From positions 186,001 through 250,000 of the forward strand of contig NZ_CP032317.1 of NCBI RefSeq assembly GCF_003574965.1: DNA of 64,000 nucleotides. The letters run 5' to 3'. The translations under genes and the position numbers were made by a program. Below the pieces are notes generated by a model. It was given only the letters and a program-made list of their open reading frames with translations. It made no database searches and was not told the DNA's origin. Shown here piece by piece: positions 1 through 64,000 of the stretch. This DNA is from Hymenobacter oligotrophus. GTDB taxonomy: Bacteria; Bacteroidota; Bacteroidia; Cytophagales; Hymenobacteraceae. Within the stretch, counting starts at the first letter, position 1. The number at the start of each line of letters is the position of its first letter.

Positions 1-74
1 ACATTGCCGCCGAAGCGGTGCCTAAGTGGCTGCCTGCTGCGCGCGGTGCTTGCCGCACCTGGGGCCGCGGCCAC

Positions 75-1025
75 CTAGGCGCTGGCCTGGTTGAGGTGAC
101 GCAAATCGGGGCCGCTGAGCGCGAGGTGCATGGCTTGCAGCAAATCCTGCACTTGCTCGGGGCTGGTGGCGCTGGCAATGGGCGCCGTGAGGCCGGGCTG
201 GGCCATAATCCAGGCCAGGGCAACCTGGGCGGGCGTGGCACCTAGGCGGGCCGCTACTTCATCGAGGGCACTTACTATGCGCAGGCCGCGCTCGTTGAGG
301 TACTTGGCCCCCACGCCGCCGCCGCGGGCGCTTTTCTGCAAATCGGCTGCGGAGCGGTACTTGCCCGTCAGGAAACCCGCCGCGAGGCCGTAGTACGGAA
401 TGACGCCCAAGCCGTGCTGCTGGCACACAGGCAGCAGGTGCTCCTCAAAATCGGCGCGGTCGTAGAGGTTGTAGAGGGGCTGCAGGCTTTCGTAGCGCGG
501 CAAGCCGTGCTGCGCGCTGGCGTGCAGGGCTTCGGTGAGGCGCTCGGCCGAAAAGTTGGAAGCCCCAATGGCGCGCACCTTGCCTTCCTGGATAAGCTGG
601 GCATAGGCCTCGAGCGGTTCGGTTACGGGCACGGTGGGGTCGTCTTTGTGCGACTGGTACAAATCGATGTAGTCGGTTTGCAGGCGCTTCAAGGAGCCTT
701 CTACGGTGCGCAAAATGTAGCTTTTGCTAAGGCCTTTCTGATCGGGCGCTACCTCCCAACCTACTTTGGTGGCGATGACGACGTCGTGGCGGCGGCCGCG
801 CTGCTTCAGCCATTTGCCGATAATGGTTTCCGACTCGCCGCCGTGGTGCCCGGGTACCCACACCGAGTAACCGTGGGCCGTGTCGATGGCGTTGCCGCCC
901 CCGGCCACAAAGGCATCGAGCACCCGAAAAGAAGTGGCTTCGTCGGCCGTCCAGCCGAACACGTTGGCGCCCAGCACCAGCGGCGCAATCGAGAGGCCCG
1001 AGCGGCCCAAAGAGCGTTGTTGCAT
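75..1025 (-). CDS. Aldo/keto reductase
   Basis: A 316-residue NAD(P)H-dependent oxidoreductase of the aldo/keto reductase superfamily, probably cytoplasmic and acting on aldehydes or ketones; the substrate cannot be read from sequence. The catalytic tetrad is visible: Asp48 and Tyr53 in AIDTAHGYS, Lys87 in VVIATKVGW and His126 in IDLYQSHKDD, and the length fits the single-barrel family. The reading frame extends upstream to 1124, but the extra 33 residues are not family-like. I therefore start at the ATG at 1023-1025 (MQQRSLGRSG), which begins the first beta strand. It is transcribed away from the amidohydrolase at 1179, so the two share a short divergent promoter region. The stop codon TAG lies inside a CCTAGG site. 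Confidence 0.9.
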   Translation of the reverse strand: MQQRSLGRSGLSIAPLVLGANVFGWTADEATSFRVLDAFVAGGGNAIDTAHGYSVWVPGHHGGESETIIGKWLKQRGRRHDVVIATKVGWEVAPDQKGLSKSYILRTVEGSLKRLQTDYIDLYQSHKDDPTVPVTEPLEAYAQLIQEGKVRAIGASNFSAERLTEALHASAQHGLPRYESLQPLYNLYDRADFEEHLLPVCQQHGLGVIPYYGLAAGFLTGKYRSAADLQKSARGGGVGAKYLNERGLRIVSALDEVAARLGATPAQVALAWIMAQPGLTAPIASATSPEQVQDLLQAMHLALSGPDLRHLNQASA

Positions 1026-1165
1026 AGTCGAAATCGGAAAGAAAAGCCGCCCAACGGCGGATGACGCAAAATAAAAGCAGCAACTACCCCGGCGGGCCAT
1101 GCTGCCAAGCCAGTGCATACGCAAACCAACCGGGCGGGGCCGGCCGCAGCTTGCGCGCCGCGCTG

Positions 1166-1178
1166 TATCTTGGGCACT
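1166..1178 (+). promoter_or_regulatory. Possible -7 promoter element directly before the ATG at 1179
   Basis: The word TATCTTGG lies five bases before the ATG and resembles the Bacteroidota -7 consensus TAnnTTTG with one mismatch. No convincing -33 TTG is at the usual spacing. If real, the transcript would start at or next to the start codon. Confidence 0.3.
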
Positions 1179-2807
1179 ATGCCACGGTTTCGTTTACCTG
1201 TTTTTAAGAGCCACCGCCTGGCCCGCTGGCCTTGGTTGGTGGCCGCGTTGCTGCTGGCCGCCAATGGCGCCCAGGCCCAGCAGGCACCTAGGGCTTCGCT
1301 TATCATCCGAAACGGGCGCGTGCTCGATGGCTCCGGCAACTCTTGGTTTCGCGGCGACGTGGCCGTGCACCAAGGGCGCATCGTGGCCGTGGGCCGCCTG
1401 CCGGCCAACTTCCTGGCCGATACCGTTATCGATGCCAACGGCTTGGTGGTAGCGCCGGGGTTTATCGATGTGCACACCCACATCGAGGACGATGAGCTGC
1501 GCCAGCCCACCGCCGACAACTTCATTTACGACGGGGTAACCACGGTAATTACCGGCAACTGCGGCTCCTCGCGCCTCGACATAGGCCGTTACTTTCAGGT
1601 GCTCGATAGTGCGCGGCTGTCGGTGAACGTGGCCTCGCTTATTGGCCACGGCGATGTGCGCAAGGCCGTGCTGGGCCGGGCCAAGCGCCAAGCTACCGAG
1701 GCCGAGCTGCAGCAAATGGAGCAATTGGTAGCCCGCGCCATGCAAGCGGGCGCCGTTGGCCTGTCCACGGGGCTGATTTACATACCCGGCACCTACACCC
1801 GCACGCCCGAACTGGTGCGCTTGGCACGCGTAGCGGGGCAGTACCGCGGCCTCTACGCCACGCACATGCGCAACGAAGGCGACAGTGTGCTGCAGGCCAT
1901 ACAGGAGGCGCTGCTGATTGGCCGCGAAGCCCGCTTGCCGGTCCAGATTTCGCACCTGAAAATAGGTGGCAAGCAGAACTGGGGCCGCGCGCCGCAAGCT
2001 TTGGCGCTGATTGAGCAGGCCCGGCAAGCCGGCCAGGAGGTTACCATCGATCAGTACCCGTACACAGCCAGCTCTACCTCGCTCAGCACCATCATCCCCG
2101 ACGACGTGCAGGCCGATGGCCGCGACTCGTTGCGGGCCCGGCTGCAGCGCCCCGGCGTGCGCGCCGCCGTGGAAGCCGCCATGGTGCGCCGCCTGCGCCA
2201 GCGCGGCTTCAAGCACTACGACTACGCCGTGGTGGCCAGCTTTCCGCCCCAGCCCAGCTACCAAGGCCTAAGCATTGAGCAGATAAACCAGCGCCTGGGC
2301 CGCAAGCACAAAGCCGCCGCCGAAGCCGCTACCGTCCTGGACCTGGTGCTGCAGCACGATGCGGGCATGGTGTTTCATGGCATGAGCGAACCGGATGTGC
2401 AGCAGATCATGCGTTACCCCTTCAACATGGTGGCTTCGGATGCCGGCGTGCGGGTGTGGCAACAGGGCATGCCGCACCCGCGCGGCTACGGCTCCAACGC
2501 CCGCGTGCTGGGGCGCTACGTGCGCGAGCTGCGCGTTATCGGCCTGGAGGAAGCCGTGCGCCGCATGACGTCGTTGCCGGCGCAAACCTTCGGCCTTGCC
2601 GACCGCGGCCTGCTGCGCCCCGGCCTCGCCGCCGACATTGTGGTGTTCGACCCGGCCACGGTGCAGGACCACTCCACCTTCGAGCGGCCGCACCAGTACA
2701 GCACCGGCATGCAGTACGTGCTCGTGAATGGCCGCCTTACGGTAGTGCAAGGCAAGCACCTAGGCACCCGCGCCGGGCAAGTGCTGTATGGCCCTGGCAA
2801 GCAGTAG
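1179..2807 (+). CDS. Secreted N-acyl-D-amino-acid deacylase-family amidohydrolase
   Basis: A 542-residue metal-dependent amidohydrolase resembling D-aminoacylase, which hydrolyses N-acyl-D-amino acids. Residues 1 to about 35 form a signal peptide (basic start, then WLVAALLLAANGAQAQ), so it acts outside the cytoplasm. Visible metal-site motifs are HxH in PGFIDVHTHIEDDE, the cysteine of TGNCGSS, histidines in YATHMRNEG and VQISHLKIGG, and the aspartate in MVASDAG. The C-terminal part closes the small beta domain (GLAADIVVFDP). An in-frame ATG exists at 1113, but starting at 1179 gives a clean signal peptide. A TATCTTGG word ends five bases before the ATG and may be a -7 element. The protein ends GKQ, like the convergent amylase-family gene; that codon block lies in an inverted repeat. 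Imidazolonepropionase or dihydroorotase activity is less likely. Confidence 0.85.
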   Translation: MPRFRLPVFKSHRLARWPWLVAALLLAANGAQAQQAPRASLIIRNGRVLDGSGNSWFRGDVAVHQGRIVAVGRLPANFLADTVIDANGLVVAPGFIDVHTHIEDDELRQPTADNFIYDGVTTVITGNCGSSRLDIGRYFQVLDSARLSVNVASLIGHGDVRKAVLGRAKRQATEAELQQMEQLVARAMQAGAVGLSTGLIYIPGTYTRTPELVRLARVAGQYRGLYATHMRNEGDSVLQAIQEALLIGREARLPVQISHLKIGGKQNWGRAPQALALIEQARQAGQEVTIDQYPYTASSTSLSTIIPDDVQADGRDSLRARLQRPGVRAAVEAAMVRRLRQRGFKHYDYAVVASFPPQPSYQGLSIEQINQRLGRKHKAAAEAATVLDLVLQHDAGMVFHGMSEPDVQQIMRYPFNMVASDAGVRVWQQGMPHPRGYGSNARVLGRYVRELRVIGLEEAVRRMTSLPAQTFGLADRGLLRPGLAADIVVFDPATVQDHSTFERPHQYSTGMQYVLVNGRLTVVQGKHLGTRAGQVLYGPGKQ

Positions 2808-3112
2808 CAAAGCGTAGCGTGCAGTAGCGCGGTGTAGCGCGAACTTTGCAGTCCGCGTCCACAGATAGTAATTTTTGTTTCTGACCTAGGGAAGCGGCGC
2901 GTGTAGCGCGGGCTTTAGCCCGCGTTGGCGTGAACGATTGGCAACGGGCGGTTTCGCCCCAATGATTTCGTGCTGGCCAACGCGGACTGAACCGCAGGAA
3001 GGCGTAGCCAAGTCCGCGCTACATGCTACACCGCGCAACGCTTGAGAATACTATCTGCGGACGCGGACTACAACCGAAGGTCGGCGTAGCCAAAGTCTGC
3101 GCTACTGCTTGC
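2797..3112. repeat. Nested inverted-repeat element (copy 1) between convergent genes
   Basis: A roughly 316-bp palindromic element. The outermost match is the 13-mer GGCAAGCAGTAGC at 2797-2809 and its reverse complement at 3100-3112. Inside are arms of the type TGTAGCGCGaACTtTGCAG (2833 onward) pairing imperfectly with 3046-3105, and an inner pair built on GTAGCGCGGGCTTTAGCCC (about 2902-2925) against 2972-3022. The same architecture recurs at 18587-18983 with well-conserved inner and terminal sequence, so this is a dispersed non-coding family (MITE or REPIN-like). No transposase is in the window. The element reaches into the last codons of both flanking convergent genes and probably acts as a bidirectional terminator region. 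Confidence 0.8.
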
Positions 3113-4535: not shown

Positions 4536-4820
4536 GCCCTAAACATACGCGGTTGCGCTTATTGCTGCGCACCTGCCGCCACGCCTGCGTTGCGCACCTA
4601 GGCCGCCGCTTTTGGCCGCAAGGGCAGCGCAGCAGCGGCCTTGCGCTTGGCAACGCTTGGGTGGTTTGGGCGCTTGGTGGGCAATTAGGTACAAGCCAGG
4701 CAGCCACCGATTTCGGGCCGCGCATTACCGCCCGAACCGCACGTACGTAGTACTACGCCCAACCCCAACGCCCTAGGTTGCCCGCGGGTAGCCGTAGGCA
4801 GGGCCAGCCGCCCAATTGCT
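4536..4820. other. Divergent intergenic region
   Basis: A 285-bp GC-rich gap between divergently transcribed genes. It contains two CCTAGG sites (about 4597 and 4772) and must hold the promoters for both genes. No convincing open reading frame or RNA structure was seen beyond the -7-like word near 4540. Confidence 0.5.
4540..4547 (-). promoter_or_regulatory. Possible -7 element of the GH13 lipoprotein gene
   Basis: On the minus strand this reads TATGTTTA, one mismatch from TAnnTTTG, and ends four bases before the ATG at 4535. No clear -33 TTG is visible. It is compatible with a leaderless transcript. Confidence 0.3.
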
Positions 4821-5735: not shown

Positions 5736-5786
5736 CCGTTTGTAATGCGTCACCAAATAAATTTCCGTGCTACAGGCAGGATTGGG

Positions 5787-6242: not shown

Positions 6243-6351
6243 GGGGCAATGCTTTGGGGCTGGTAATGGTGCCACGCTACAGCCAAGCAAGCAGCCCCGC
6301 CCTAGGTACGTAACCTGGAGCGGGGCTGCTACACTTGGCGGAGCCTAGGGG

Positions 6352-9915: not shown

Positions 9916-10073
9916 CCTGTTGCTTTGCCGCATCCGGTAGGTTCGGCCCACCCCGCCGCCTAGGTGGCAGGGTGGGCCGTTGGCTGCAGGGGCGCCCGGC
10001 GGGCACAACGCCGCGGCGCTGCCAACGTAGGTTAGGCAACAACCGTTAGCCGCCACCCAAACCCTCGACGAGT

Positions 10074-19504: not shown

Positions 19505-20545
19505 TTAAGCAAATAGGCGAGGGTCGAGCACGAAGGCAGCCGTGAGGTCGGGGGCAGTGCCGGGGGCTTGCACCTGCAGGCGCTCGGCGGGTATGCGGTA
19601 CAGGGCCTGCAAGCGCTCGGCCGTTTGTTGATCGGGCACCAGCACGCGGTCGGCATGGGGGAGAGCCAAGCGTTCCAGGGCCTCACCCCAACCGCGGTCT
19701 ACGGGTGAGAGTAGGTCGGTGGCCAGCTGCGTAACGCGCAACACCAACGGCCGGTGGGTAATGTGCCGAATTTCAACCCCGGCTAGCCACACCGGCCAAT
19801 CCGGCGCGAAAATCACATCAAAGGTAGTGCTGCGGGCCAAACGCACGGCGTGGCGGGCGTATTGGATGATGCGGAAGTTCATGCTGTCGACCTCAGCGGC
19901 TGAACTCGGCAACGGGGCCGGCTGCTCCGAAGCTGATGCGGCGGGTGGGGCGGGCGCTGCCACCTCCGCCGACGGCTCTGCCGGTGCCAATTGCCCGGGC
20001 ACAGCTGCGGCAAAAAATAGCTCGTCGGTTGGGCTGCCTTCAGGGGCGGTAGTTGCTGCCGATGCCTCCGGCTCGGCGTTGGCGGCGGGGGCACCTAGGG
20101 GCAAGTCGTCGGCTGCCTCGGCAAGGGTAGTGTACTGGCTGCTCAGTTCGGCCGCCTCCAGCACGCCGGGCTCGGAGGCGGGTTGGCGCTCCAATACTGC
20201 GGGGGTTGGCGTGCGGCCGATGTAAGGCGCTGCGGGCACCCGAAAACCGCTTGGCTGCTCGGTGGCAGGGTTACTGCTGGCCGTGGCGTAGGCGCTGGCG
20301 CCAACGTTGGGGTAGGCCGGGGCCGCGGTACCTAGGGCCGCGAAGTCGGGCGCTGGGGGCAACGCGCCGGCGCCTAGGTGCTGCAAACTGGCGTTGGCAG
20401 GCAGGGCAGCGGCCGCAACCGGCTCGGCAAGCCACAGCTGAACGGCGGCAGCCACGGGCAGTGCCCGGGCCAGCGGAAGCGCCTCGGACGCGGCGTCCCA
20501 GCCCAGTAGCAGCACAGAAGCAGAAGCGGGGTTGAGCATGGGCAT
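19505..20545 (-). CDS. Glycosyltransferase-4-like protein with long low-complexity insert
   Basis: About 346 residues starting MPMLNPASASVLLLGWDAAS; a second ATG lies two codons in. The N-terminal 50 residues look like the first strand and helix of a Rossmann fold. They are followed by about 150 residues of Ala/Pro/Glu/Ser-rich low complexity. The last 110 residues resemble the second half of a GT-B N-terminal domain, as in glycogen synthase: NFRIIQYARHAV, FDVIFAPDWPVWLAGVEI, LVLRVTQL, HADRVLVPDQQTAERLQALY. There is no C-terminal GT-B domain to bind the sugar nucleotide, so it is unlikely to be an active transferase alone. Position between glgB and a GH31 gene suggests a link to glycogen metabolism, which is inference only. 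Confidence 0.65.
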   Translation of the reverse strand: MPMLNPASASVLLLGWDAASEALPLARALPVAAAVQLWLAEPVAAAALPANASLQHLGAGALPPAPDFAALGTAAPAYPNVGASAYATASSNPATEQPSGFRVPAAPYIGRTPTPAVLERQPASEPGVLEAAELSSQYTTLAEAADDLPLGAPAANAEPEASAATTAPEGSPTDELFFAAAVPGQLAPAEPSAEVAAPAPPAASASEQPAPLPSSAAEVDSMNFRIIQYARHAVRLARSTTFDVIFAPDWPVWLAGVEIRHITHRPLVLRVTQLATDLLSPVDRGWGEALERLALPHADRVLVPDQQTAERLQALYRIPAERLQVQAPGTAPDLTAAFVLDPRLFA

Positions 20546-20696
20546 GAGCAGTGTACGAGGCAGCGCTAACCTAGCACCCGGGAGGTGGGCAAACAACATA
20601 AATCGCGCGAAACCTGCTTACCTTGCACGCTAGCCCGACCGGAAGCCTCCGGCCGGGCGTCTTTCTTCACCTAGTTTGCCGCAACCCTGAACTGAC

Positions 20697-23156
20697 ATGG
20701 ACAATACCACGATTCAGGAAAACAATTACATGATTAACGACTTGGCCCAGAAGGCTAAGCAGGATTTTACGCCTGGCCAAGTCGTAAGTGCCGAAGTCGT
20801 TCCTGGTACCGCCGATTTCCGCTTTACCGCCGACAACGGGGTGGTGCTGCTCGTGCAGGTTATCACCGACAAAATTTTACGTTTTCGTTACAGCACCGAC
20901 GGTTACTTCACCCCCGATTTCAGCTACGCCTTTGAGGGGGGCGTGCCGGCGCGCGAAACCACGGCGCTGCTCGAGTTTGTCGAAAAAGACGACCACTACC
21001 GCCTCACCACGGGCCGCCTCATCTGCATCGTGGGCAAGGAGGGCATGCACGTGCGCTTGCTCAACCGTTCGGGCGCGGTGCTGTGCGAGTACGAGAAGGG
21101 CTTCCACTGGGAGTACGACTACGAGTCGGGCAACGACATCGTAAAGATGAGCCAGCAGGTGCAGCCCGGCGTGCACTACTTCGGCCTCGGCGACAAGCCC
21201 GCCAACATGAACCTGCGCGGGCAGCGCTTCTGCAACTGGGGCTCCGATACCTACGGCTACGTAAAAGGCTCCGACCCGCTCTACAAGAATATTCCGTTCT
21301 TCATGGCCCTGCACCAAAAGCTGGCCTACGGTCTGTTCTTCGACAACTCGTTCAAGAGCTACTTCGATTTTGCTGCCGAGCGCGCCGACGTAACCTCGTT
21401 TTGGGCGCACGGGGGCGAGATGAACTTCTACTTCATTTACGGGCCCACGCTGCTCGAAGTAACCCAGCAGTACACCCGCTGCCTTACGGGCACGCCCGAG
21501 CTGCCGCCGCTGTGGGCCCTGGGCTACCACCAGTGCAAGTGGAGCTACTACCCCGAGAAGCTGTTCCGCGGCATTGGCGAGGAGTTCCGGAAGCGCCAGA
21601 TCCCCTGCGATGCGCTGTACCTCGACATCGACTACATGGACGGGTACCGCTGCTTTACCTGGCACCCCGAGCACTTCCCCGAGCCCAAAAAGATGGTGCA
21701 GGAGCTGGCCAACGACGGCTTCAAAACCATCGTTATCATCGACCCGGGCATCAAAATCGACCCGCAATACCCGGTGTGGCAGCAGGGCTTTGAGAACGAC
21801 TACTTCTGCCGGCGCGGCGACGGGCCGCTGATGAAGGGCTCGGTGTGGCCGGGCCTGTGTCACTTCCCCGATTTCACGCGCGCCACGGTGCGCGAATGGT
21901 GGAGCGGATTGTTTAAGGGCCTGATCGAGGACGTGGGCGTGCGCGGCGTGTGGAACGACATGAACGAGCCGGCCGTGTTTGAGAAAGGCACCTTCCCCGA
22001 CGACGTACGCTTCGATTACGACGGCAACGCCTGCACGCACAAAAAGGCGCACAACGTGTACGGCATGCAAATGGCCCGCGCCACCAACGAGGGCGTGAAG
22101 CGCTTTGCGCACCCCAACCGGCCGTTCACCATCACGCGCAGCACCTACTCAGGCGGGCAGCGCTACTCTTCGGGCTGGACAGGCGACAACGTGGCCTCGT
22201 GGGAGCACCTGTGGTTGGCCAACATTCAGTGCCAGCGCCTAAGCATTTCGGGCTTCTCGTTTATCGGCTCCGATGTGGGCGGTTTCATCAACACGCCCGA
22301 TGGCGAGCTGTACGTGCGCTGGGTGGCCTTGGCGGCGTTTCACCCGTTCTTCCGTACGCACTCGTCAGGCGACCACGGCGACCAGGAGCCTTGGTCGTTT
22401 GGCGAAGAGTTTACCGACCTGGCGCGCCACTTCATCGAGCTGCGCTACCGCCTGCTGCCCTACATGTACACCACGTTTTGGCAGTACGTGCAGCACGGCA
22501 CGCCCATGCTGCGCCCCTTGGCTTTCATCGACCAGAACGACATCGAGACGTACCAGCGCATGGCCGAGTTTGCCCTCGGCGACCACCTGCTGGTGTGCCC
22601 CGTAACGCAAGCCGGCGCCGATGGCCGCTGGATGTACCTGCCCAAAGGCCAGTGGTACTACTGGTGGACCGACGAAGCCCGCGACGGTGGCTCGGAGGTG
22701 TGGGCCCCCGCTGGCCTCGACCGCATTCCGCTGTACGTGCGCGCCGGGGCTGTAATTCCGCTGCGCCCCGTGATGCAGTACGTGGAAGAACTGCCCGTAA
22801 CCGAGCTCACGCTGCACGTGTACTACAAAAACGGCAAGGAAACCAGCACCCTTTACGACGACGGCGGCGAAGGCTACGGCTACCAGCAAGGCCAATACAC
22901 CTTGCGCCGCTACACCGTAACGGGCAACGCTACCGGCCTGAAGCTGCAGCAAGAAATCGAAGGCGAGCTGACGCCCAGCTGGGGCACTTGCCGCGTGGTG
23001 CTGCACGGCCTGCCCCTAGGTGCCGAGCTGCTGGCCGTTACGGCCGATGGCAAGGAGCTGGCGGTAGAAGTTGCCGCCGCGGCCAATGGCGGCCAGGAGC
23101 TACCGCAGGTGGTGGTGCCGGCTGGTTTTGCCGAGCTGGTAGTGCGCACGGCGTAA
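20697..23156 (+). CDS. Cytoplasmic GH31 alpha-glucosidase
   Basis: An 819-residue GH31 enzyme without a signal peptide, hydrolysing terminal alpha-linked glucose from oligosaccharides inside the cell. The N-terminal beta-sandwich spans about residues 30-265. The barrel begins at LWALGYHQCKWSYYP (about 272). Nucleophile Asp421 lies in GVWNDMNEP and acid/base Asp497 in SSGWTGDNVASW; YLDIDYMDGYRCFTW and GFSFIGSDVGGF are further family blocks. The distal and C-terminal beta domains run from about 640 to 819. The first ATG (MDNTTIQENN) is used; an internal ATG at residue 12 is the alternative. It ends just before a palindromic terminator at 23177. Together with glgB it supports turnover of internal alpha-glucans. 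Confidence 0.92.
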   Translation: MDNTTIQENNYMINDLAQKAKQDFTPGQVVSAEVVPGTADFRFTADNGVVLLVQVITDKILRFRYSTDGYFTPDFSYAFEGGVPARETTALLEFVEKDDHYRLTTGRLICIVGKEGMHVRLLNRSGAVLCEYEKGFHWEYDYESGNDIVKMSQQVQPGVHYFGLGDKPANMNLRGQRFCNWGSDTYGYVKGSDPLYKNIPFFMALHQKLAYGLFFDNSFKSYFDFAAERADVTSFWAHGGEMNFYFIYGPTLLEVTQQYTRCLTGTPELPPLWALGYHQCKWSYYPEKLFRGIGEEFRKRQIPCDALYLDIDYMDGYRCFTWHPEHFPEPKKMVQELANDGFKTIVIIDPGIKIDPQYPVWQQGFENDYFCRRGDGPLMKGSVWPGLCHFPDFTRATVREWWSGLFKGLIEDVGVRGVWNDMNEPAVFEKGTFPDDVRFDYDGNACTHKKAHNVYGMQMARATNEGVKRFAHPNRPFTITRSTYSGGQRYSSGWTGDNVASWEHLWLANIQCQRLSISGFSFIGSDVGGFINTPDGELYVRWVALAAFHPFFRTHSSGDHGDQEPWSFGEEFTDLARHFIELRYRLLPYMYTTFWQYVQHGTPMLRPLAFIDQNDIETYQRMAEFALGDHLLVCPVTQAGADGRWMYLPKGQWYYWWTDEARDGGSEVWAPAGLDRIPLYVRAGAVIPLRPVMQYVEELPVTELTLHVYYKNGKETSTLYDDGGEGYGYQQGQYTLRRYTVTGNATGLKLQQEIEGELTPSWGTCRVVLHGLPLGAELLAVTADGKELAVEVAAAANGGQELPQVVVPAGFAELVVRTA

Positions 23157-23176: not shown

Positions 23177-23215
23177 AAAAGCCCTAGGTGCTGCGCAGCA
23201 CCTAGGGCTTTTTGC
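23177..23215 (+). terminator. Palindromic terminator with CCTAGG in both arms
   Basis: A perfect 36-bp palindrome (23177-23212): AAAAGCCCTAGGTGCTGC followed by its reverse complement and TTTTTG. Each arm carries CCTAGG. It is suitable as an intrinsic terminator for the GH31 gene. Confidence 0.85.
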
Positions 23216-23251: not shown

Positions 23252-23776
23252 TTGCAGAATCAAACTACGGGTACACCTAGGCGCTGGGCGAAACACATGG
23301 CAGCGGCGCTAAGCTTGCTGCTGTGGGCTGGGGCACCGGCTGCCGCCCAACGCATCGTGCTGCCTACCGGCGAATACATGGATACCACCAGCCTGCGGAA
23401 TCCTGGGTGTGGTGCGCCGTTCTACCAGTACTACCAAGTAAAGGGCAAGTACCCAGTTGCCTCGGCTACCCTTGCCCGGCAAGCGCAGGCTTTTTTGCAG
23501 CAGCGAAATGGCCGCTACACCGGTACTGGGCTGATTACCTTTCGCTTTGGCATCGACTGCGAAGGCAAGCGGCTGCCCTGGACCAAGGTGCTGCAGACCG
23601 ATGCCGCCTACCGCCCTACGCATTTCGCGCCGGCCTTGGTCGAGGCGCTTTATGCCTATTTGCAAACCCTCACCGATTGGCGGCGCGCTTCGGGGCCCAA
23701 CCGCGAACCGGCCAATTACCTCACGCTGCTAAGCTTCCGCATTCAGGATGGAAAAGTTGTGGCCGTTACTCCTTAG
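23252..23776 (+). CDS. Secreted protein of unknown function
   Basis: A 174-residue protein if started at TTG 23252, which gives a basic n-region (RRWAKH) before the hydrophobic core MAAALSLLLWAGAPAAAQ. The ATG at 23297 is the alternative and lacks positive residues. The mature part is about 140 residues, and segments such as GTGLITFRFGIDCEGKRLP and NYLTLLSFRIQDGKVVAV faintly resemble TonB C-terminal-like alpha/beta domains; I do not consider that established. Two cysteines (GCG, DCEG) could form a disulphide in the periplasm. Its last 29 bases overlap the next gene, so the two are probably translationally coupled. Confidence 0.65.
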   Translation: MQNQTTGTPRRWAKHMAAALSLLLWAGAPAAAQRIVLPTGEYMDTTSLRNPGCGAPFYQYYQVKGKYPVASATLARQAQAFLQQRNGRYTGTGLITFRFGIDCEGKRLPWTKVLQTDAAYRPTHFAPALVEALYAYLQTLTDWRRASGPNREPANYLTLLSFRIQDGKVVAVTP

Positions 23777-25707: not shown

Positions 25708-25980
25708 GCTGCGGTGGAGCTTGTGCGCGAAGACGCGCGGGCGACGTGTGGGTGAGTTGGGGCCGATGCCCTAGGTCAGAAACTGCTCGGCCAACCTAGG
25801 CAACCGGCCGTTGCTTGGCGCGTGTTGGGAAGATCAGGTTTGGGTCATGCTCATCTGGCCTCCGCTTTGTCGAAGCATCTCTACCGCTTCGTTTGGGCTC
25901 GTTCGACGAAGCGGTGAGATGCTTCGACTGCGCTCAGTATGACGTTCTAGAAGGGTTTTTGTTTAATTCTAAACACGCAC
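25708..25980. other. Intergenic region with REP-like hairpin
   Basis: 273 bp between the hydrolase gene (start side) and the T9SS cargo gene (stop side). It contains two CCTAGG sites (about 25770 and 25794) and the inverted repeat at 25870-25927, then an AT-rich tail. No gene is seen. Confidence 0.5.
25870..25927. repeat. REP-like inverted repeat
   Basis: TCGAAGCATCTCTACCGCTT at 25870 onward pairs with the complement at 25906-25927, with one mismatch and a 13-base spacer. The flanks GTCATGCTCA and CAGTATGAC extend the symmetry weakly. Words of the type CGAAGCATCTC occur in dispersed intergenic repeats of related genomes. Confidence 0.7.
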
Positions 25981-37033: not shown

Positions 37034-37105
37034 CTTGATTATCACAGAAAAACGGTGCGCTGCCTAGGTGCTGCCGAGCACCCGGGCCGCCGGCACCTAG
37101 GGAAA

Positions 37106-40579: not shown

Positions 40580-42496
40580 ATGCACCCCGTAATTACCCCC
40601 GAGCGCGTACCCGTCAGCATCTACTCCGATTCGGAGCAGGCATCGGTGGCTGTGGCCCAGCAAATTGCCGACCTCATTCGGCAGCGCCACGGCGAAGGCC
40701 AGCCCTGCGTACTAGGTTTGGCTACCGGTTCGTCGCCCACGCGCGTGTACGAGGAGCTGGTACGCATGCACCGCGAAGAAGGCCTGTCGTTCCGCAACGT
40801 CATCACCTTCAACCTCGACGAGTACTACCCCATGCTGCCCGACTCGCTGCAGAGCTACGTGCGCTTTATGCACGAGTACCTGTTCGACCACGTGGACATC
40901 CCGGCCGAAAACATACACATCCCCAACGGCACCATTCGGCAGGAGGACGTGGCCGAGTACTGCCGCCGCTACGAGGCCGCCATTGCGGAGGCCGGCGGCA
41001 TCGATTTGCAACTGCTGGGCATTGGCCGCACGGGCCACATCGGCTTTAACGAGCCGGGCTCGGGCGCCAGCTCGCGCACCCGCCTCATCACCCTCGACCA
41101 CATCACGCGCACCGATGCGGCCTCCGATTTCTACGGCGAAGAAAACGTGCCGCGCCGTGCTCTTACCATGGGCGTGGGTACCATTCTGGAAGCGCGCCAA
41201 ATTGTACTGATGGCCTGGGGCGAGGGCAAAGCCGCCGTTATCAAGCGCATGGTGGAGGGCGAGCCAACCGACTCGGTGCCGGCCACTTACCTGCAGCGCC
41301 ACCCCGCCGTGCAGGTGGTGCTCGACGAGGCCGCCGCCGCCGAGCTAAGCCCGCGCAAAACGCCGTGGCTGGCCGGCATTGCGTGCAACTGGCAAAACGA
41401 AGCCCTGGTGCGCAAAGCCGTAACCTGGCTGGCAAGGCACCTGCAAAAGCCCATTCTCAAGCTCACCGACGAAGATTACAACGAAAACGGCCTGTCGGAC
41501 TTGCTGGCCGAATCGGGCCAAGCCTATGGCATCAACATTCGGGTGTTCAACCAGCTGCAGCACACCATTACGGGCTGGCCCGGCGGCAAACCCAACGCCG
41601 ACGACTCGCACCGCCCCGAGCGCGCCACGCCCTTTCCGAAGCGGGTTCTCATCTTCTCGCCGCACCCCGACGACGACGTCATCTCGATGGGCGGTACCTT
41701 GCTGCGCCTCGTCGACCAAGGCCACGAGGTGCACGTGGCGTACCAAACCTCGGGCAACATTGCCGTGTTCGACGACGAAGCCATCCGGTTTGCCGAGTTC
41801 GTGGCCGATTACGACCAAGCCCTAGGTTTGCCGGGCGAGCAACCCGCCGAGAGCTTGTACCAACGCGTGGTTGATTTCCTGAAGAAGAAAGCGCCTGGGC
41901 AGGTAGATGCGCCGGAGGTGCAGCAAATCAAAGGGCTGATCCGGCGGGGCGAGGCCAAATCGGCGTGCCGCCTGGCGGGCATCCCCGACGAAAACGCGCA
42001 CTTCATGGATTTGCCCTTCTACGAAACCGGGCGGGTGCGCAAAAAGCCACTAGGTGAAGAAGACATTCAGCTGACCATCGACCTGCTGAACAAAATTCGA
42101 CCGCACCAGATTTACGCCGCCGGCGACTTATCCGACCCGCACGGCACGCACCGCGTGTGCTTATCGGCCATTTTTCAGGCTGTGGAGCGTCTGAAGGCAG
42201 AAGGCGCCCCGTGGCTGCAAGACTGCTGGGTGTGGCTGTACCGCGGCGCCTGGCAGGAGTGGGACATCGACCAGATTGAAATGGCCGTGCCCATTTCGCC
42301 CGAGGAGCTTACGCGCAAGCGCCGCGCCATCTTTAAGCACCAGTCGCAAAAAGACCGGCCGTTGTTCCCCGGCGCCGACCAACGGGAGTTCTGGCAGCGC
42401 GCCGAAGAGCGCAACCGCACCACCGCCAAAATTTACGACCAGCTGGGCCTACCCGAGTACGAAGGCATCGAGGCCTTTGTGCGCTGGAAATACTAG
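40580..42496 (+). CDS. nagB: Glucosamine-6-phosphate deaminase fused to LmbE-like domain
   Basis: A 638-residue two-domain cytoplasmic protein. Residues about 10-260 are NagB, converting glucosamine-6-phosphate to fructose-6-phosphate and ammonia: LATGSSPTRVYEEL binds phosphate, FNLDEYYPM carries Asp80, and GIGRTGHIGFNEPGS carries His153 and Glu158. Residues about 350-640 are a PIG-L/LmbE-type domain with the zinc motif FSPHPDDDVISMGGT and DPHGTHRVC. This fusion is a known arrangement in Bacteroidota; the role of the second domain is not settled. It is divergent from one SusCD operon and upstream of another, suggesting that amino sugars are among the imported substrates. A terminator with CCTAGG in both arms follows. 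Confidence 0.93.
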   Translation: MHPVITPERVPVSIYSDSEQASVAVAQQIADLIRQRHGEGQPCVLGLATGSSPTRVYEELVRMHREEGLSFRNVITFNLDEYYPMLPDSLQSYVRFMHEYLFDHVDIPAENIHIPNGTIRQEDVAEYCRRYEAAIAEAGGIDLQLLGIGRTGHIGFNEPGSGASSRTRLITLDHITRTDAASDFYGEENVPRRALTMGVGTILEARQIVLMAWGEGKAAVIKRMVEGEPTDSVPATYLQRHPAVQVVLDEAAAAELSPRKTPWLAGIACNWQNEALVRKAVTWLARHLQKPILKLTDEDYNENGLSDLLAESGQAYGINIRVFNQLQHTITGWPGGKPNADDSHRPERATPFPKRVLIFSPHPDDDVISMGGTLLRLVDQGHEVHVAYQTSGNIAVFDDEAIRFAEFVADYDQALGLPGEQPAESLYQRVVDFLKKKAPGQVDAPEVQQIKGLIRRGEAKSACRLAGIPDENAHFMDLPFYETGRVRKKPLGEEDIQLTIDLLNKIRPHQIYAAGDLSDPHGTHRVCLSAIFQAVERLKAEGAPWLQDCWVWLYRGAWQEWDIDQIEMAVPISPEELTRKRRAIFKHQSQKDRPLFPGADQREFWQRAEERNRTTAKIYDQLGLPEYEGIEAFVRWKY

Positions 42497-42524: not shown

Positions 42525-42568
42525 GCCCCTAGGTGCCCACCCTGCTGTGCGGCACCTAGGGGCTTTTT
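42525..42568 (+). terminator. Terminator with CCTAGG in both arms
   Basis: GCCCCTAGGTGCC pairs with GGCACCTAGGGGC across a 13-base loop and is followed by TTTTT. It terminates nagB. Confidence 0.85.
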
Positions 42569-42741: not shown

Positions 42742-45700
42742 ATGCCCAACACCTACTCGCTTGCGAGGCGGCCCCTGCTGTGGGGCTGGCTCTCGTTATG
42801 CCTAATGCTTTGCCTAGGTGCCGCCGGTTCGGCTATTGCGCAACAGCAGGCCTACACCCTGCAAGGCCGCGTTACGGATGAGCGCGGCCAGGGCTTGCCC
42901 GGCACCACCGTGCTCGTGGGCGGCACCACGCAAGGCGCCTCCACCGATGCCGACGGCAACTACACCTTCAGCGCCCAGTTGGCGCCGGGGAGCTACACGC
43001 TTACGTTTTCGAGCATCGGTTTTACGGCCCAAAACCGCTCCGTTACGCTGGGTAGTGTTACCAGCGTAACCACCAACGTAACCATGCGCGAGGCGCGCCA
43101 AAGCCTCGACGACGTGGTGGTGGTGGGCTCAACGGTAAGCACCAACCGCCGCGAGCTGGGCAATGCCATCAGCACGGTATCGGGGCAGGAGCTGACGCGC
43201 AGCGGCACGGGCGCGGTGCTGAACTCGCTGCAGGGCAAAGTGCCCGGTGCGCAAATCGTGCAAAACTCCGGCGACCCGGCCGGCTCCATTTCGGTGCGGT
43301 TGCGCGGCATCAAGTCGCTTTCGGGCTCCTCCGATCCGTTGTACGTTATCGACGGGGTTATCATCAGCAACAGCAGCGTCAACGTGTCGCAGTTGGCCGT
43401 TTCAAACGACGTGGGCTCGGCGCAGGTGGGCCAAAACCGCCTCGCCGACCTCAACCCCAACGACATCGAAAGCATCAACGTGCTGAATGGCGCCGCTGCG
43501 GCAGCCATATACGGCTCGCGCGCGGCCAACGGCGTGGTGCTGATTACCACCAAGCGCGGCCGTGCTGGCGAGGTGCGCGTATCGGCCTACGCCAGCGTAA
43601 ACATGAACGAGCTGCGCAAATCGGTGCCCGTGAATACCTACGGCAAGCAATTCGGCTTTGCGGGTTTGCGCCTGTATACCATTGGCGGTGTAACGCCGGC
43701 GCAGGTGGCCGCCAACCCCGGCACCACCACCGTGGGCATTACGCGGGCGGGCGTAACCACGCAGCTGGCCTCCAACCTGGTGGACGTGGAGCGCTACAAC
43801 TACTTCGACGAAATTTTTCAGCGCAGCTACGGCACCGATAACGGCGTGTCGGTTTCGGGGGGCTCCGAGAACACGCAGTACCTCGTATCGGTGGGGTATT
43901 TCAAAAACCAGGGCATTGTTCGGGGCACCGATTTCACGCGCTACAACATTCGCACGCGCCTCAACCAAGGCCTTACCAAGTGGGCCCGCCTGACGGCCGG
44001 CGTGGCATTCAGCAACAGCTACGCCGACGAAAAAGCCAACGGCAACGTGTTCTATAGCCCCATCAACTCCGTCAACATCACCAACAACATCTACGACATC
44101 CGGCAGCGCGACGCCAACGGCAACCTGCGGGCCGTGGAGCCCACCCGCGTAAACCCGCTCTCGACCATCGAGGACATGGACTTTACGCAGCGCGTGAACC
44201 GCACCATCAGCGACTTGCAGCTGAAGCTGACGCCGCTGCGGGGCTTGTCGGTTGATTACCTGATTGGGGCCGATTTGTACGGGCAAGCGGGGCAGAGTTA
44301 CATCCGGCCGTACCCGTACCAGGCGCAGGCGGGCTTGCCGCTGGCCCGTTACCCGTTTGGTTTCGCCTCCAACGCGCAGCTGAACGCGCTGCAACTCAAC
44401 TCCGACCTGAACGTGGCCTACGACCGGCAGTTGGGCGAAAACTTCAAGACTACGTTGCTGGCGGGTTACAGCTACCAGTACGTGCGCCAGGAGCTAACCC
44501 AGGCCCGCGGCCAAAACCTGACGCCGTTTATTACCACCATCAGTGGGGCAGCCAACAACACGCTCGTCAGCACCTATGGCATTCCGGAGCAGTTCGACCT
44601 AAGCGGTGCCTACGTGCAGGGCACGTTGGGCTACCGCAACCTGGCCTTTGTAACGGCCGCGGTGCGCCGCGACGGGTCGTCGAAATTCTCGAGCTCCGAA
44701 ACCAACCAGTACTACCCCAAGGTAAGCGGCTCGTTGGTGGTGTCGGACCTAGGGTTTTGGCAAAATGCCGGCTACGCCAAAGCGTTTAACTCGCTGAAGC
44801 TGCGCGCCAGCTACGGGCAAGCGGGCGGCCTCACGGGCATTGGCTCCTACGACCGGTTTTACCAGTTTTCGCCGGTGCCGTTTTTGGGCCGCAGCACCTA
44901 CCTGCCCAACTCGCGCCTGGCCAACGAGCGCGTGCGCCCCGAGCGCCTGACGGAGCTGGAAGTGGGCGGCGACCTAGGGTTTCTGAACGACCGCATTGGG
45001 CTGGGCATCACGGCGTATTGGCAGGAAACCGAGCAACTGCTGGCCAACCGCAACGTGGCGCCCTCCACGGGCGGCCTCACCATTGTAACCAACGTGGCCA
45101 GCATCGAAAACAAGGGCGTGGAGCTGCAGCTAACCGCCACGCCGGTGCGCACCGCCAACTTCAGCTGGGACATTACGGCCCTGTTCAACCGCAACCGCAA
45201 CAAGGTGCTGGAGCTGCCGGGCTCGGGCGGGCAGCAGCAGGCCATTGCCATCGATAACGTGGCCGGCGCGCCGGTGTACCTGCTGGCCGGGCAGCCGGTG
45301 GGCGTGTTCTACGGCTCGGGCTACGCGCGCAACCCCGATGGCTCGTTGCTGCTCACGCCGCAGGGCTTTCCGCAGGACGAGCGCACCCGCGGCCAGGCCG
45401 TGGGCGCTACCAGCTACGTGCCCGCCCGCGAGGGCAACGGCCAGCCCGGCTACGGCCCCGGCACGGCCATTGCCAACATCGTTATCGGCAACCCCAACCC
45501 CAAATGGACGGGCTCGTTCAGCACCAACGTGGCCTTCAAAAAGCTCTCGGCCCGTATTCTGCTCGATGCGGTGCAGGGCGTGGACGTGTTTAACGCCGAT
45601 TACCGCACGCGCCAGGGCGTGGGCCTAGGTGATTTGGCCGAAAAAGAGCTGCGGGGCGAGCTGCCGCGCGGCTACATTTTTGCCGTGTACAACACGCAGG

Positions 45701-50387: not shown

Positions 50388-51572
50388 ATGCAAAGCACCA
50401 CCCAAGCCGCCCTCGAAACCACCCACACCCAGCCGCTGGCCGAGGCGTCGCAGCCGGGCCGGTTGGTGTCGCTCGATGTGTTCCGGGGCATCACCGTAAT
50501 GGCGATGATTCTGGTAAACAACCCCGGCGACTGGGGCCACATCTACGCGCCGCTCGAGCACGCCGCCTGGAACGGCTGCACGCCCACCGACCTCATCTTT
50601 CCGTTTTTCTTGTTCATCGTGGGCGTGTCGTTGGTGTACGCCCTCGATGGCGTGAAGCGACAAGGCGGCCCGCTAAGCGCTACCATGCTGCGGGTGGTGC
50701 GCCGCGGGGCGGTGCTGTTTGCGCTGGGTTTGTTTTTGGCCTTGTTCCCGAAGTTCGAGTTTGCCACGGTGCGCATTCCGGGCGTGCTGCAGCGCATCGG
50801 GCTGGTGTTTATCATCAGCAGCGCCATTTTTCTGTACACCGGGCGCCGCACGCAGTTGGGTTTGCTGGCCGGTATTCTAGTGCTCTACAACGTGCTGCAA
50901 CAGCTGGTGCCCGCGCCCGGCCTAGGTGCCGCGGCCTTACTGCCCGGCCAAGACCTAGGCGCCTGGCTCGACCGCACCGTGCTCACCGAAGCGCACCTTT
51001 GGAAGTCAAGCAAAACCTGGGACCCCGAGGGCCTGCTGAGCACGCTGCCCGCCGTGGGTACCGGTTTGCTGGGCGTGATAACCGCCCAGTGGCTGCGCCG
51101 CCGCGACGTGCAGCCCGCCGAAAAAGTAGCCTGGCTGTTCGTCGACGGGGCCTTGCTCGTTGTGCTCGGGCTGATCTGGAACGGCTGGTTCCCCATCAAC
51201 AAAAGCCTCTGGACGAGCTCCTACGTGCTTTACACCGGCGGCATTGCCATCAGCGCGTTGGCGGCTCTGTACTGGATTTGCGACGTGCAGGGCTGGCGCG
51301 GCTGGATTAAGCCTTTCCTGGTGTACGGCGTCAATGCCATTACCGTGTTCTTTTTATCGGGGCTGATACCGCGCATCCTCAACCTGATTAAGCAGCCGTT
51401 GCCCGGCAGCGGCAAAGAGGTGGGCCTGAAGGAGTGGCTGTACCAAACGCTGTTCGTGCCCACCTTCGCGGTGCCCGAAAATGCTTCGCTTGCCGGCGCC
51501 GTTACGCTCATCCTGATTTGGCTGGGCATTTTGTGGTGGATGTACCACAAGCGTGTCATCATTAAGGTTTAA
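50388..51572 (+). CDS. NagX-like membrane acyltransferase (heparan-alpha-glucosaminide N-acetyltransferase-like)
   Basis: A 394-residue polytopic membrane protein with about ten hydrophobic helices. The N-terminal block RLVSLDVFRGITVMAMILVN, then TPTDLIFPFFLFIVGVSLVY is characteristic of the DUF5009/NagX and lysosomal HGSNAT-like family, which is thought to transacetylate amino sugars across a membrane. Other landmarks are LRRGAVLFALGLFLALFPKF-like segments and GVLQRIGLVFIISS. The frame is open to 50193 upstream, but the MQSTTQAALETT start at 50388 is the first sensible one. A strong terminator follows at 51588. In this window it lies between nagB and the NagZ-like gene, which fits amino-sugar metabolism. 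Confidence 0.88.
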   Translation: MQSTTQAALETTHTQPLAEASQPGRLVSLDVFRGITVMAMILVNNPGDWGHIYAPLEHAAWNGCTPTDLIFPFFLFIVGVSLVYALDGVKRQGGPLSATMLRVVRRGAVLFALGLFLALFPKFEFATVRIPGVLQRIGLVFIISSAIFLYTGRRTQLGLLAGILVLYNVLQQLVPAPGLGAAALLPGQDLGAWLDRTVLTEAHLWKSSKTWDPEGLLSTLPAVGTGLLGVITAQWLRRRDVQPAEKVAWLFVDGALLVVLGLIWNGWFPINKSLWTSSYVLYTGGIAISALAALYWICDVQGWRGWIKPFLVYGVNAITVFFLSGLIPRILNLIKQPLPGSGKEVGLKEWLYQTLFVPTFAVPENASLAGAVTLILIWLGILWWMYHKRVIIKV

Positions 51573-60559: not shown

Positions 60560-60571
60560 CCCTTCGGCCAC

Positions 60572-61729: not shown

Positions 61730-64000
61730 TGCGAACTGCTTTCCACCCTTCGTACCTAGGGCGCTGCCGCGCCGCCGTGGCAGCCGCGCTGCTGGGTTTG
61801 GCCGCCTGCCCAAGCGCCGGGGCCCAAACCCCGGCAGCGGCTCCAGTCAGCATCAAGCAGGCGTTTGAGAACTACAGCAAGCTTGATGCGCACGAAAAGC
61901 TGTTTCTGCACCTCGACCGCACCACTTACCTAGGCGGCGACATGATGTGGTTTAAGGTGTACGCCGCCGAGGGCACCCGCCAACGGCCCCTGCCGCTCAG
62001 CCGCGTGGCCTACGTGGAGGTGCTAAACGGGCGCCAACGGCCTGTGCTGCAAGCCAAAATCGAGCTGAAGCAGGCCGCGGGGCACGGCTCGTTTCAGTTG
62101 CCGGCCACGCTGCCGGCCGGGCGCTACACCGTGCGGGCCTACACCAACTGGATGAAGAACTTCGGGCCCGAGTACTTCTTCCGGAGCACGGTTACGGTGC
62201 TGAACACTTTTGCCGCCGCCTTGCCGGCCGACACGGTGAAAGCAACCCCGCCCGACGCGCAATTCTTTCCGGAAGGCGGCAGCCTGGTAAAAGGCCTGCC
62301 AAGCAAAGTAGGCTTTAAAGTAACCGACCAAGCCGGCCGGGGCTTGGCCGCCGAAGGCGTGCTGCTCGATAAGCAAGGCAAACAGGTGGCCCGCTTTGCT
62401 ACCCTGCGCCACGGCATGGGGCAGTTTGTGTTTACGCCTGCCGAAGCCGGCACTGGCTACACCGCCGTGCTCAAGCTTGCCAACGACCAAACCCTAACCC
62501 GCGCACTGCCCGCCGTGTACGAGCAAGGCTATGTGCTAAGCGTGGCGCCGGCAGGCCCGGGGCAGTTGGGGTTGTCGGTGGCGGCCAACGGCCCCGCCGC
62601 CGCCGAAGAGTTGTACGTGCTCGGCCATGCCGGGCAACACGCGTTTCTGGCCCAAAGCCTGCGCTTAGCCAACGGACAAGCCCAACTCGTGCTCGATAAA
62701 GCCGCGTTGCCCGAAGGCGTGCTGCACTTCACGGTATTCAACGCGCAGCGCCAGCCGGTGTGCGAGCGGCTGTACTTCCGGCGCCCCAATAGCCGCTTGG
62801 TAATCGAGGCCACGCCCGATAAGCCGCAGTACGCCACCCGCGACAAAGTGAGCCTGCGCCTGGCCACCGCCAACGGTGCGGGGCAGCCCGCCGCCGCCGG
62901 GCTTTCGATGGCCGTTTACCGCCTCGATTCGCTGGCGGCGCCCGAGTCGGCGGCCGACATCCGCTCGTACTTGTGGCTGACCTCGGCGCTGCGGGGCCAC
63001 ATCGAAAACCCCGGCTACTATTTGCAGGCCCCCGAACCCGAGGCCGAAGTCGCCGCCGATAACCTGATGCTGACGCAGGGCTGGCGCCGCTTTCGGTGGG
63101 AAACATTACTGGCCGGCACGCCGCCGGCCTTGCCGCACGCCCCCGAGCTAAACGGCCACCAGATTAGCGCGCGGCTGCTAAACAAAGCCACCGGCGCCCC
63201 AATGGCCGGCATACCGGCCTACTTGGCGGCCCCCAGCCGCGTGGTACGCCTCTACAACGGCATCAGCAACCCCGAGGGCCTGGTGCGCTTTGAAGCCCGC
63301 GAGCTGTACGGCCCCAAAAACCTGGTGCTGCAAACCAACTTTCGGCAAGACAGCACCGCCCGCTTTGAGCTGCTGAGCCCATTTGCTGCCGAGCACGCCG
63401 AGCAACCCCTGGCGCCGCTGCGCCTAACCGAGCAAAACCGCGCCGAGCTTACGCAGCGCCATTTGCAGGTGCAGGCCCAAAACGCCTACTTCCGCAAAGT
63501 CCTAGGTGCCTACGCCCAGTCCCTCACCGACAGCCTGGCGTTTTACGGCCGCCCCGACGAACGCTACCGCCTCGACGATTTTACCCGCTTTAAGGTAATG
63601 GAGGAGGTAATGCGCGAGTACGTGCCCGGCGTGGTGGTGCGCATCCGCAAGGGCCAATTCTACTTTATGGTGGTCGACAACGGCAACCGCACCATCTTCA
63701 CCGACGAGCCCATGGTGCTGGTGGATGGCGTGCCGTTTTTCAACACCGACCGGGTAATGAAGATTGACCCCTTGAAGGTGCAGCGCCTCGATGTGGTAAC
63801 GCGCGGCTACCTGCACGGCCCGCTTACCTACCCCGGCCTGGTAAGCTACACCAGTTACCGGGGCGACATGGCCGGGGCCCAGCCCGATGCCCGCGCCTTG
63901 GTGCAAGCCTACGAAGGCCTGCAGTGGGAGCGGGAGTTTTACGCCCCGCGCTACGAAACCGAGAGCCAAAAGCAAAGCCGCTTACCCGATTTGCGCCACC
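61729..64000 (+). CDS. Large secreted protein with macroglobulin-like N terminus (partial, cut by window end)
   Basis: An open frame of 757 codons runs from ATG 61729 to the window edge with no stop, so the gene continues beyond 64000. The start overlaps the DUF4249 stop by one base. A signal peptide (RAAVAAALLGLAACPSAGAQ) is followed by KLDAHEKLFLHLDRTTYLGG and DMMWFKVYAAEG, the macroglobulin MG2-like pattern of large Bacteroidota proteins encoded beside TonB-dependent receptors. Further on there are beta-sandwich segments and, near residues 620-700, a plug-like region (RLDDFTRFKVMEEVMREYVP, then TDEPMVLVDGVPFFNTDRVM and LKVQRLDVVTRGYL). It probably works at the outer membrane with the receptor and the lipoprotein. 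Confidence 0.85.
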   Translation, partial: MRTAFHPSYLGRCRAAVAAALLGLAACPSAGAQTPAAAPVSIKQAFENYSKLDAHEKLFLHLDRTTYLGGDMMWFKVYAAEGTRQRPLPLSRVAYVEVLNGRQRPVLQAKIELKQAAGHGSFQLPATLPAGRYTVRAYTNWMKNFGPEYFFRSTVTVLNTFAAALPADTVKATPPDAQFFPEGGSLVKGLPSKVGFKVTDQAGRGLAAEGVLLDKQGKQVARFATLRHGMGQFVFTPAEAGTGYTAVLKLANDQTLTRALPAVYEQGYVLSVAPAGPGQLGLSVAANGPAAAEELYVLGHAGQHAFLAQSLRLANGQAQLVLDKAALPEGVLHFTVFNAQRQPVCERLYFRRPNSRLVIEATPDKPQYATRDKVSLRLATANGAGQPAAAGLSMAVYRLDSLAAPESAADIRSYLWLTSALRGHIENPGYYLQAPEPEAEVAADNLMLTQGWRRFRWETLLAGTPPALPHAPELNGHQISARLLNKATGAPMAGIPAYLAAPSRVVRLYNGISNPEGLVRFEARELYGPKNLVLQTNFRQDSTARFELLSPFAAEHAEQPLAPLRLTEQNRAELTQRHLQVQAQNAYFRKVLGAYAQSLTDSLAFYGRPDERYRLDDFTRFKVMEEVMREYVPGVVVRIRKGQFYFMVVDNGNRTIFTDEPMVLVDGVPFFNTDRVMKIDPLKVQRLDVVTRGYLHGPLTYPGLVSYTSYRGDMAGAQPDARALVQAYEGLQWEREFYAPRYETESQKQSRLPDLRH

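Follow-up and report, generated by a model that had tools for sequence, protein, structure and literature searches.

DNA uptake sequences (DUS) of Neisseriaceae and uptake signal sequences (USS) of Pasteurellaceae are oriented, non-palindromic words that occur about once per kb on both strands, lie in genes and are richer between them, partly form close inverted, terminator-like pairs, are poor in mobile DNA, and exist in dialects with a common core; DNA carrying them is taken up preferentially via a receptor such as ComP. To our knowledge, such sequences have been described from only these two families of Proteobacteria. Here we report a word of similar character, ACCTAGG followed by G, C, or A, in a 64,000-base stretch of the Hymenobacter oligotrophus chromosome (positions 186,001 to 250,000 of NZ_CP032317.1; hereafter the window) and in related genomes. 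It shares the sequence properties listed above and differs in its size of 8 bp (9 to 12 bp in DUS and USS), in its occurrence in Bacteroidota, in the symmetric dialect of one relative, and in being known from sequence alone. According to the part of PMC3630211 that we consulted, USS and DUS measure 9 bp and 12 bp, accumulate in the core genome, and have a 3-nt core in common among dialects, while the consulted part of PMC7371117 describes them as under-represented in acquired islands.

The initial annotation of the window had likened its palindrome CCTAGG to HIP1 (GCGATCGC), one of the highly iterated palindromes (HIPs) of cyanobacteria. HIP1 and the alternate HIPs are likewise abundant short words with a palindromic core, patchily distributed among relatives and present in coding and non-coding DNA. 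This analogy is weaker than first thought: abundance and patchiness agree, but the unit is oriented and non-palindromic in the window's clade, our searches (described below) found no cognate methyltransferase, and the intergenic density lies above the ceiling of the published model. Chi is also an over-represented oriented word, but ours has no strand polarity, is enriched far more strongly than is usual for Chi, and is nearly absent from sister species. The CCGG site of Helicobacter offers another unexplained over-representation of a restriction-type site, yet the accessible text of PMC4687349 gives a Kr of only about 1.4 to 1.5 and R-M (restriction-modification) genes for the site, in contrast to an oriented word enriched about 120-fold for which the same searches found no such genes. 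Over-representation of CCTAGG in Hymenobacter or Bacteroidota was not named in the open-licence literature that we surveyed by title and start of abstract.

Exactly 97 CCTAGG sites lie in the window (GC content 62.7%), in agreement with an earlier hand count of about 97, and they account for 97 of its 141 CTAG sites. Base composition predicts 21.5 sites (about 20 by the earlier estimate), and Markov models, which had been proposed as a genome-wide check, give expectations for the window far below the observed number at order 1 (13.9), order 2 on both strands (11.5, with the highest z among 6-mers), and order 3 (20.2). An order-4 model expects 81.9 sites and thus formally opposes the enrichment, but this test is circular, since CCTAGG itself accounts for most of the CCTAG and CTAGG 5-mers. 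The whole genome (G000; G labels denote the genomes compared and L labels stretches of DNA) holds 5,678 copies in 4,188,814 bases on 4 contigs, compared to 67 copies of the reversed control GGATCC. Among 204 genomes of the family, 9 have more than 5,000 copies (hereafter high genomes; 3 of 8 in the window's genus and 6 of 120 in a second genus), 4 have 1,209 to 2,331, and 191 have 54 to 888 (low genomes). Within 200 kb around rpoB, the three high species of the window's genus have 257 (G000), 243 (G005), and 249 (G007) copies versus 5, 6, and 7 in the low sisters G003, G006, and G002; in the second genus, the numbers are 285 for G058 and 9 for G016. Identity in the aligned part is about 88% among the three high species, and with the low sisters it is 79% to 81%.

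The pressure behind this enrichment acts on the DNA word and not on one reading frame, as the initial annotation had proposed. By our own simple gene calls, 60 sites of the window read as Leu-Gly, 4 as Pro-Arg (one of them already singled out earlier; Table 1), and 33 are intergenic, and the expected greater density between genes is borne out with 3.34/kb compared to 1.18/kb in coding DNA. Synonymous-codon shuffling that kept proteins and codon usage left 6.5 ± 2.4 sites in the window's genes (13 in the highest of 200 shuffles) versus 64 observed. In G000, CTN-box Leu codons that follow C and precede GG are CTA in 159 of 220 cases, compared to 7% to 10% in other contexts, and in the low sisters CTA makes up 2% to 3% of CTN-box Leu codons. 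These shuffles and the context-bound use of CTA rule out codon or dipeptide preference as the cause, and intergenic densities of 2.6 to 3.7/kb in high genomes versus 0.10 to 0.12/kb in low ones point the same way. Protein composition has nevertheless shifted: Leu-Gly is the most increased of the tested dipeptides in the three high genomes (1,472 versus 1,236; observed/expected 1.06 versus 0.90 in low genomes, z 4.5), a rise of about 18%, and it ranks third after PP and NF in G058 compared to G016 (522 versus 409, z 2.2). Pro-Arg is raised in G058 (202 versus 141 in G016, z 2.1) but not in the first clade (447 in high versus 455 in low genomes). Where G000 has a CCTAGG site in the Leu-Gly frame, a low sister has Leu-Gly in 67% to 69% of places, compared to 75% to 78% for other CTN-GG places.

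The palindrome itself is not the enriched unit in this clade, contrary to the initial view. Among 354 sites (those of the window together with a further 200 kb of its chromosome), A stands on at least one flank in 323, on exactly one in 315, on neither in 31, and on both in only 8, where the marginals predict 77. Because A occupies one flank but rarely both, what is over-represented is an oriented word with the palindrome inside it, ACCTAGG plus a subsequent G, C, or A (in the order G>C>A). We therefore dropped the idea of a palindrome read by a dimer in this clade, where the flanks are strongly coupled. In 3 × 200 kb of high genomes, ACCTAGG[GC] occurs 615 times versus 5 times in 3 × 200 kb of syntenic low sisters (about 120-fold), compared to only 59, 16, and 14 versus 0, 0, and 0 for ACCTAGGA, ACCTAGGT, and CCCTAGGG. 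Other first bases are enriched 6.6-fold (C; 58 versus 8), 2.9-fold (G; 42 versus 14), and 3.0-fold (T; 8 versus 2). Both orientations are filled alike: the word is present at 20/27 and 33/36 of the Leu-Gly places able to carry it in one or the other orientation in the window, and CTA is used at 7/22 places where neither flank fits. In G000, CTA is used at 54/66 Leu-Gly pairs with A before and non-T after and at 84/96 in the reverse orientation versus 15/51 where neither fits, so that 74% to 92% of word-capable places in the window and G000 are filled. G007 is similar (58/66 and 85/107, neither 12/41), G005 lower (51/75 and 72/101, neither 6/65), and CTA stands at 0% to 8% of corresponding pairs in the low sisters. 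Likewise, Gly is encoded by GGT in 47% of cases where GGT would complete the reverse word and in 18% elsewhere. Forward and reverse counts are nearly equal in all four stretches counted (47/40 in the window; 105/123, 120/105, and 107/114 in the others), and a directional, oriented, yet strand-neutral pressure thus acts on this word in coding and intergenic chromosomal DNA.

In the second genus, the dialect is different. G058 has CCCTAGGG 109 times, CCCTAGGC 104 times, and GCCTAGGC 25 times, with A flanking only 26 of its 285 sites; C and G are preferred on both sides independently and A is disfavoured, so that the unit is the symmetric SCCTAGGS and, unlike in the window's clade, a palindrome. 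Copy numbers and pairwise identities, rather than a tree, suggest one gain of the word in the lineage that gave rise to the three high species and a separate one in the second genus.

Chromosomes carry 1.1 to 1.4 copies of the word per kb, and plasmids in the same cells mostly escape it. ACCTAGG[ACG] is absent from 71,152 bases of the three small contigs of G000 (covering 20,000 of the 31,586 bases of G000:C3 and 40,000 of the 42,169 bases of G000:C2), and plasmid contigs have 4 copies in 158,200 bases plus 2 in 100,000 bases in G005 and 2 in 12,518 bases in G007. The exception is the 259-kb contig G007:C5 with 54 copies in 259,103 bases, of which 50 lie within 160 to 240 kb and 4 in the remaining 179 kb; this 80-kb part is perhaps chromosomal DNA captured by a plasmid. 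Plasmid status is shown for G005:C2, which over its first 20,000 bases matches a plasmid of Hymenobacter sp. YIM 151858-1 without any difference, and is probable for the other small contigs; the first 20 kb of one from G000 match Hymenobacter plasmids in 24 of 25 matching records. A type I restriction island is also poor in CCTAGG (7 sites in 20 kb).

Conservation of sites between close species, another suggested check, is high. Of 266 CCTAGG places found in at least one of the three high species, 129 are common to all three, compared to between 4/72 and 78/200 for ten other chosen palindromes; for CCATGG, which holds the start codon, it is 29/64. Places with two of three sites lack CCTAGG in G000 (14), G005 (34), or G007 (23), and singletons number 22, 14, and 30, respectively; the oriented word is present at 107 places in three species, at 72 in two, and at 57 in one. 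When changes are polarised with an outgroup, CTG>CTA and CTC>CTA rise 14.7- and 16.0-fold in CCTAGG context in G000, 16.2- and 13.9-fold in G005, and 8.8- and 10.2-fold in G007, with the context defined by G000 as it is today, a choice that favours conserved flanks, and with CTT too rare to count (1/2, 0/1, 1/2). In G000, this amounts to 32/60 CTG>CTA changes in word context versus 70/1924 elsewhere and to 19/29 versus 24/585 for CTC>CTA.

Among the options listed initially, an uptake signal is the one that we favour: tentatively, we rate a watermark of DNA uptake or another recombination drive as the most likely origin of ACCTAGG. Cells would take up or recombine conspecific DNA with ACCTAGG[G>C>A] more readily than DNA without it, and such biased transfer would let the word build up wherever the sequence allows, as in Neisseriaceae and Pasteurellaceae. 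A pressure that is oriented, strand-neutral, chromosome-wide, active in coding and non-coding DNA, and variable in dialect gives the pattern expected from biased uptake and recombination, and we infer that the bias would work through these processes and not through organism-level selection for a bound protein. Like known uptake sequences, the word of the window's clade is short, strongly over-represented, and non-palindromic (unlike the dialect of G058 with its independent flanks), without strand polarity, present in open reading frames (ORFs) and enriched outside them, partly arranged in close inverted pairs of which some are terminator-like (see below), and depleted from plasmid contigs and one island except for the 80-kb part of G007:C5. 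Within Bacteroidota, Riemerella columbina favours its own DNA in transformation according to the consulted part of PMC7965970.

Several observations weigh against an uptake watermark. The word has 8 bp, shorter than USS and DUS with their 9 and 12 bp, and the symmetric dialect of G058 is what a dimeric DNA-binding protein or a methyltransferase would give. Sites turn over with polarised losses of the oriented word (17, 29, and 26 in G000, G005, and G007) exceeding gains (3, 4, and 7), so that any present-day net gain is hypothetical. Genic copies in opposite sense outnumber those in the sense of the gene (289 versus 206), neither with a clear trend along genes, while uptake sequences are said in the consulted part of PMC2346458 to have an intragenic bias of one orientation. 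Spacing is near random, although close pairs are mildly depleted in 2 of 5 sets; pairs below 150 bp are significantly scarcer in G005 (p 0.005) and G058 (p 0.001) but not in G000, G007, and the window, and we dropped even spacing as more than a weak effect. Neighbours 61 to 150 bp apart show no excess of inverted pairs (29 inverted, with 6 pointing apart and 23 facing, versus 33 direct). Finally, plasmids and islands may lack the word merely through recent arrival.

A chromosome-binding protein of nucleoid, segregation, repair, or termination function, with weak organism-level selection favouring each copy of the word, is a rather unlikely alternative. It would have the same population-genetic form as biased uptake, and it agrees with the strong conservation of sites, with a bias towards CTA that in G000 is similar whether CTA arises by transition (CTG>CTA) or by transversion (CTC>CTA), with the near restriction of the word to chromosomes, and with inverted pairs that look like terminators. 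Of 46 neighbours at most 60 bp apart, 39 are inverted (28 point away from and 11 towards each other, compared to 7 in the same direction), pooled over the window and three related genomes with some pairs counted more than once; 16 of 19 pairs at most 45 bp apart are inverted in the window and G000 alone. Two of the three window pairs that we folded (Table 1) are terminator-like and lie just behind a gene, with −28.2 kcal/mol (z −6.55) for the first and −34.4 kcal/mol (z −6.06) for the second, but the third is little better than shuffled sequence (z −1.62; 13 of 200 shuffles equally good). Intergenic density peaks between convergent genes in G000, G005, G007, and G058 (4.9 to 6.3/kb), unlike in the window with 7.9/kb in tandem gaps versus 3.4/kb in convergent ones. 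A binding protein would, however, have to confer a benefit that adds up over more than 5,000 sites while their spacing has almost no effect, and it has to face the lack of strand polarity and the variation of the word between related genomes.

Table 1. Features of the CCTAGG-containing word in the window (positions are those of the window).
Positions	Strand	Feature	Remark
1..64000	Both	Window-wide CCTAGG, n=97	87 read ACCTAGG[ACG] in a single orientation (47 on +, 40 on −)
1287..1292	+	Pro-Arg frame (CCT AGG), the less common one	Inside ORF 1113-2807
20330..20379		Two facing sites	Inside gene 19505-20599
23182..23207	+	Inverted pair CCCTAGGT ... ACCTAGGG, stem then U-tract	In the gap from a gene end at 23156 to a gene start at 23252
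25769..25801		Intergenic inverted pair of the word	
37062..37102		Inverted pair	Both neighbouring genes on the − strand; fold computed for the + strand alone
42527..42561	+	Inverted pair, stem and U-tract	In the gap from a gene end at 42496 to a gene start at 42742
50920..50960		Inverted pair inside a gene	Both sites in Leu-Gly frame

HIP-like methylation, in which mismatch repair follows the mark that a methyltransferase puts on the word and thereby creates and protects sites (as proposed by Elhai for cyanobacteria), appears unlikely. The density of about 1.4 per kb and the patchiness resemble those of HIPs as given in the consulted part of PMC4390886, and the G058 form is palindromic, but the word is asymmetric in the window's clade, plasmids in the same cells mostly escape it, and intergenic densities of 2.6 to 3.7/kb go beyond the saturation of the model at about 1 per kb (PMC4390886, same part). 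A loose first look at five Pfam families found no methyltransferase family common to G000 and G007, which is not proof of absence: matches number 0 and 0 for PF00145, 0 and 1 for PF01555, 1 and 0 for PF02384, and 0 and 0 for PF02086, respectively, with one sub-cut-off match in G000 and none in G007 for PF07669. The PF01555 enzyme, the only find in G007 within these five families, adjoins a SmaI-type nuclease on a 12.5-kb contig. A scan of G000 for [DN]PP gave 84 places, of which we hand-picked 52 with Y, F, or W as next residue; 41 of these lay in 40 stretches that were scanned together with two further 20-kb stretches for DNA methyltransferase motif I in open frames of at least 120 residues, leaving out the other 11 (all W). 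Only two such frames emerged, a type I HsdM and an MmeI-like type IIG enzyme, in a motif scan that was limited to these 41 of 52 places in G000 and did not search for SPPY-type enzymes. Orthologs of the IIG enzyme occur in the low genomes G001, G004, and G067, and we therefore dropped the IIG enzymes of L063/L065 and L192/L195 as cognate candidates, the L192 kind also for having no PF07669 match in G007.

Mutational bias, whereby a context-specific mutator or very-short-patch repair converts near words, seems very improbable. Such signatures do exist: G005 shows 53/250 CTTGG>CCTGG and 28/353 CTAGG>CCAGG changes versus 7/200 and 5/304 in G000 (CTTG without following G changed less often than CTTGG in G005, at 68/609, and at 36/579 in G000), and its excess of CCTAGG losses goes mostly to CCCAGG (24/34). 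We take this CTWGG to CCWGG signature, seen in G005 alone of the three species, to be Vsr repair, and a search of the 204 genomes run after this prediction found Vsr in G005 but not in G000 and G007. Because the signature erases CCTAGG in G005, Vsr is ruled out as creator of the word; it also fails as a general divider between high and low genomes, being present in 89 of 204 genomes including many low ones and, among the nine high ones, only in G005 and G127. This natural footprint of very-short-patch repair comes from the 200-kb rpoB region of G005 (L082 to L091); the vsr gene of G005 is located at G005:C1:3010308, with a C5 methyltransferase roughly 10 kb away. Gains pooled over frames do differ by ancestral word (16/76 for CCCAGG, 12/101 for CCGAGG, and only 1/40 for CCAAGG), but the low value for CCAAGG may reflect constraint since one frame gives a stop codon, Leu-frame gains are similar for transition and transversion, and amino acid changes towards Leu-Gly occur. 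A polar recombination or segregation signal like Chi or the FtsK-orienting polar sequences (KOPS) would fit an oriented, over-represented word that is poor on plasmids, but we give it hardly any credence in view of forward and reverse counts that are about equal in the four stretches and an enrichment of about 120-fold, far above that of Chi.

Apart from the word itself, the window encodes proteins that include alpha-amylases, a TonB plug protein, and a DUF4249 protein. In the window and the Hymenobacter-type stretches, TGCGCA is about 1.6- to 2.4-fold over-represented whether the genome is high or low in CCTAGG, and it is well conserved across the three high species, being the palindrome with 78 of 200 places in all three. 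CATTGCC occurs 40 to 47 times per 200 kb, with 10 to 15 expected, in the low genomes G003, G006, G002, and G016 (L102 to L131, L142 to L151), and TCGCGCA is over-represented in the same four as well as in G000 and G058. G098 and G113 (genus g32 of the same order) have 1,805 and 1,288 copies of GGATCC, possibly another high-frequency palindrome. Contig G007:C1 (2,498 bases) has no G or C at all and is probably masked. When 84,980 named genomes were scanned for three CCTAGG lying near one another, at least 119 stretches matched; no Hymenobacter is among the matches listed, and the scan is therefore silent on the distribution in this genus. Among the same matches, only L381 (Candidatus Geothermarchaeota contig WAKB01000005.1) exceeds one CCTAGG per kb once the matched cluster is set aside (14 in 7.35 kb); it also has 71 CTAG in 8 kb and possibly belongs to another word-rich genome.

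If ACCTAGG were a HIP without methyltransferase after all, the main clue to the purpose of HIPs would be removed. If it is an uptake watermark, then Hymenobacter and its relatives might, with more reserve still, represent a third lineage with such sequences and the first in Bacteroidota, where they would have evolved more than once, with ACCTAGGV and SCCTAGGS as two dialects at least, and changed protein composition through the excess of Leu-Gly. The cause could be sought by comparing the 9 high with the 191 low genomes, and since copy numbers in sister species of about 80% identity range from almost zero to over 5,000, the origin of a watermark would be traceable step by step in this family and its effect on proteins measurable.

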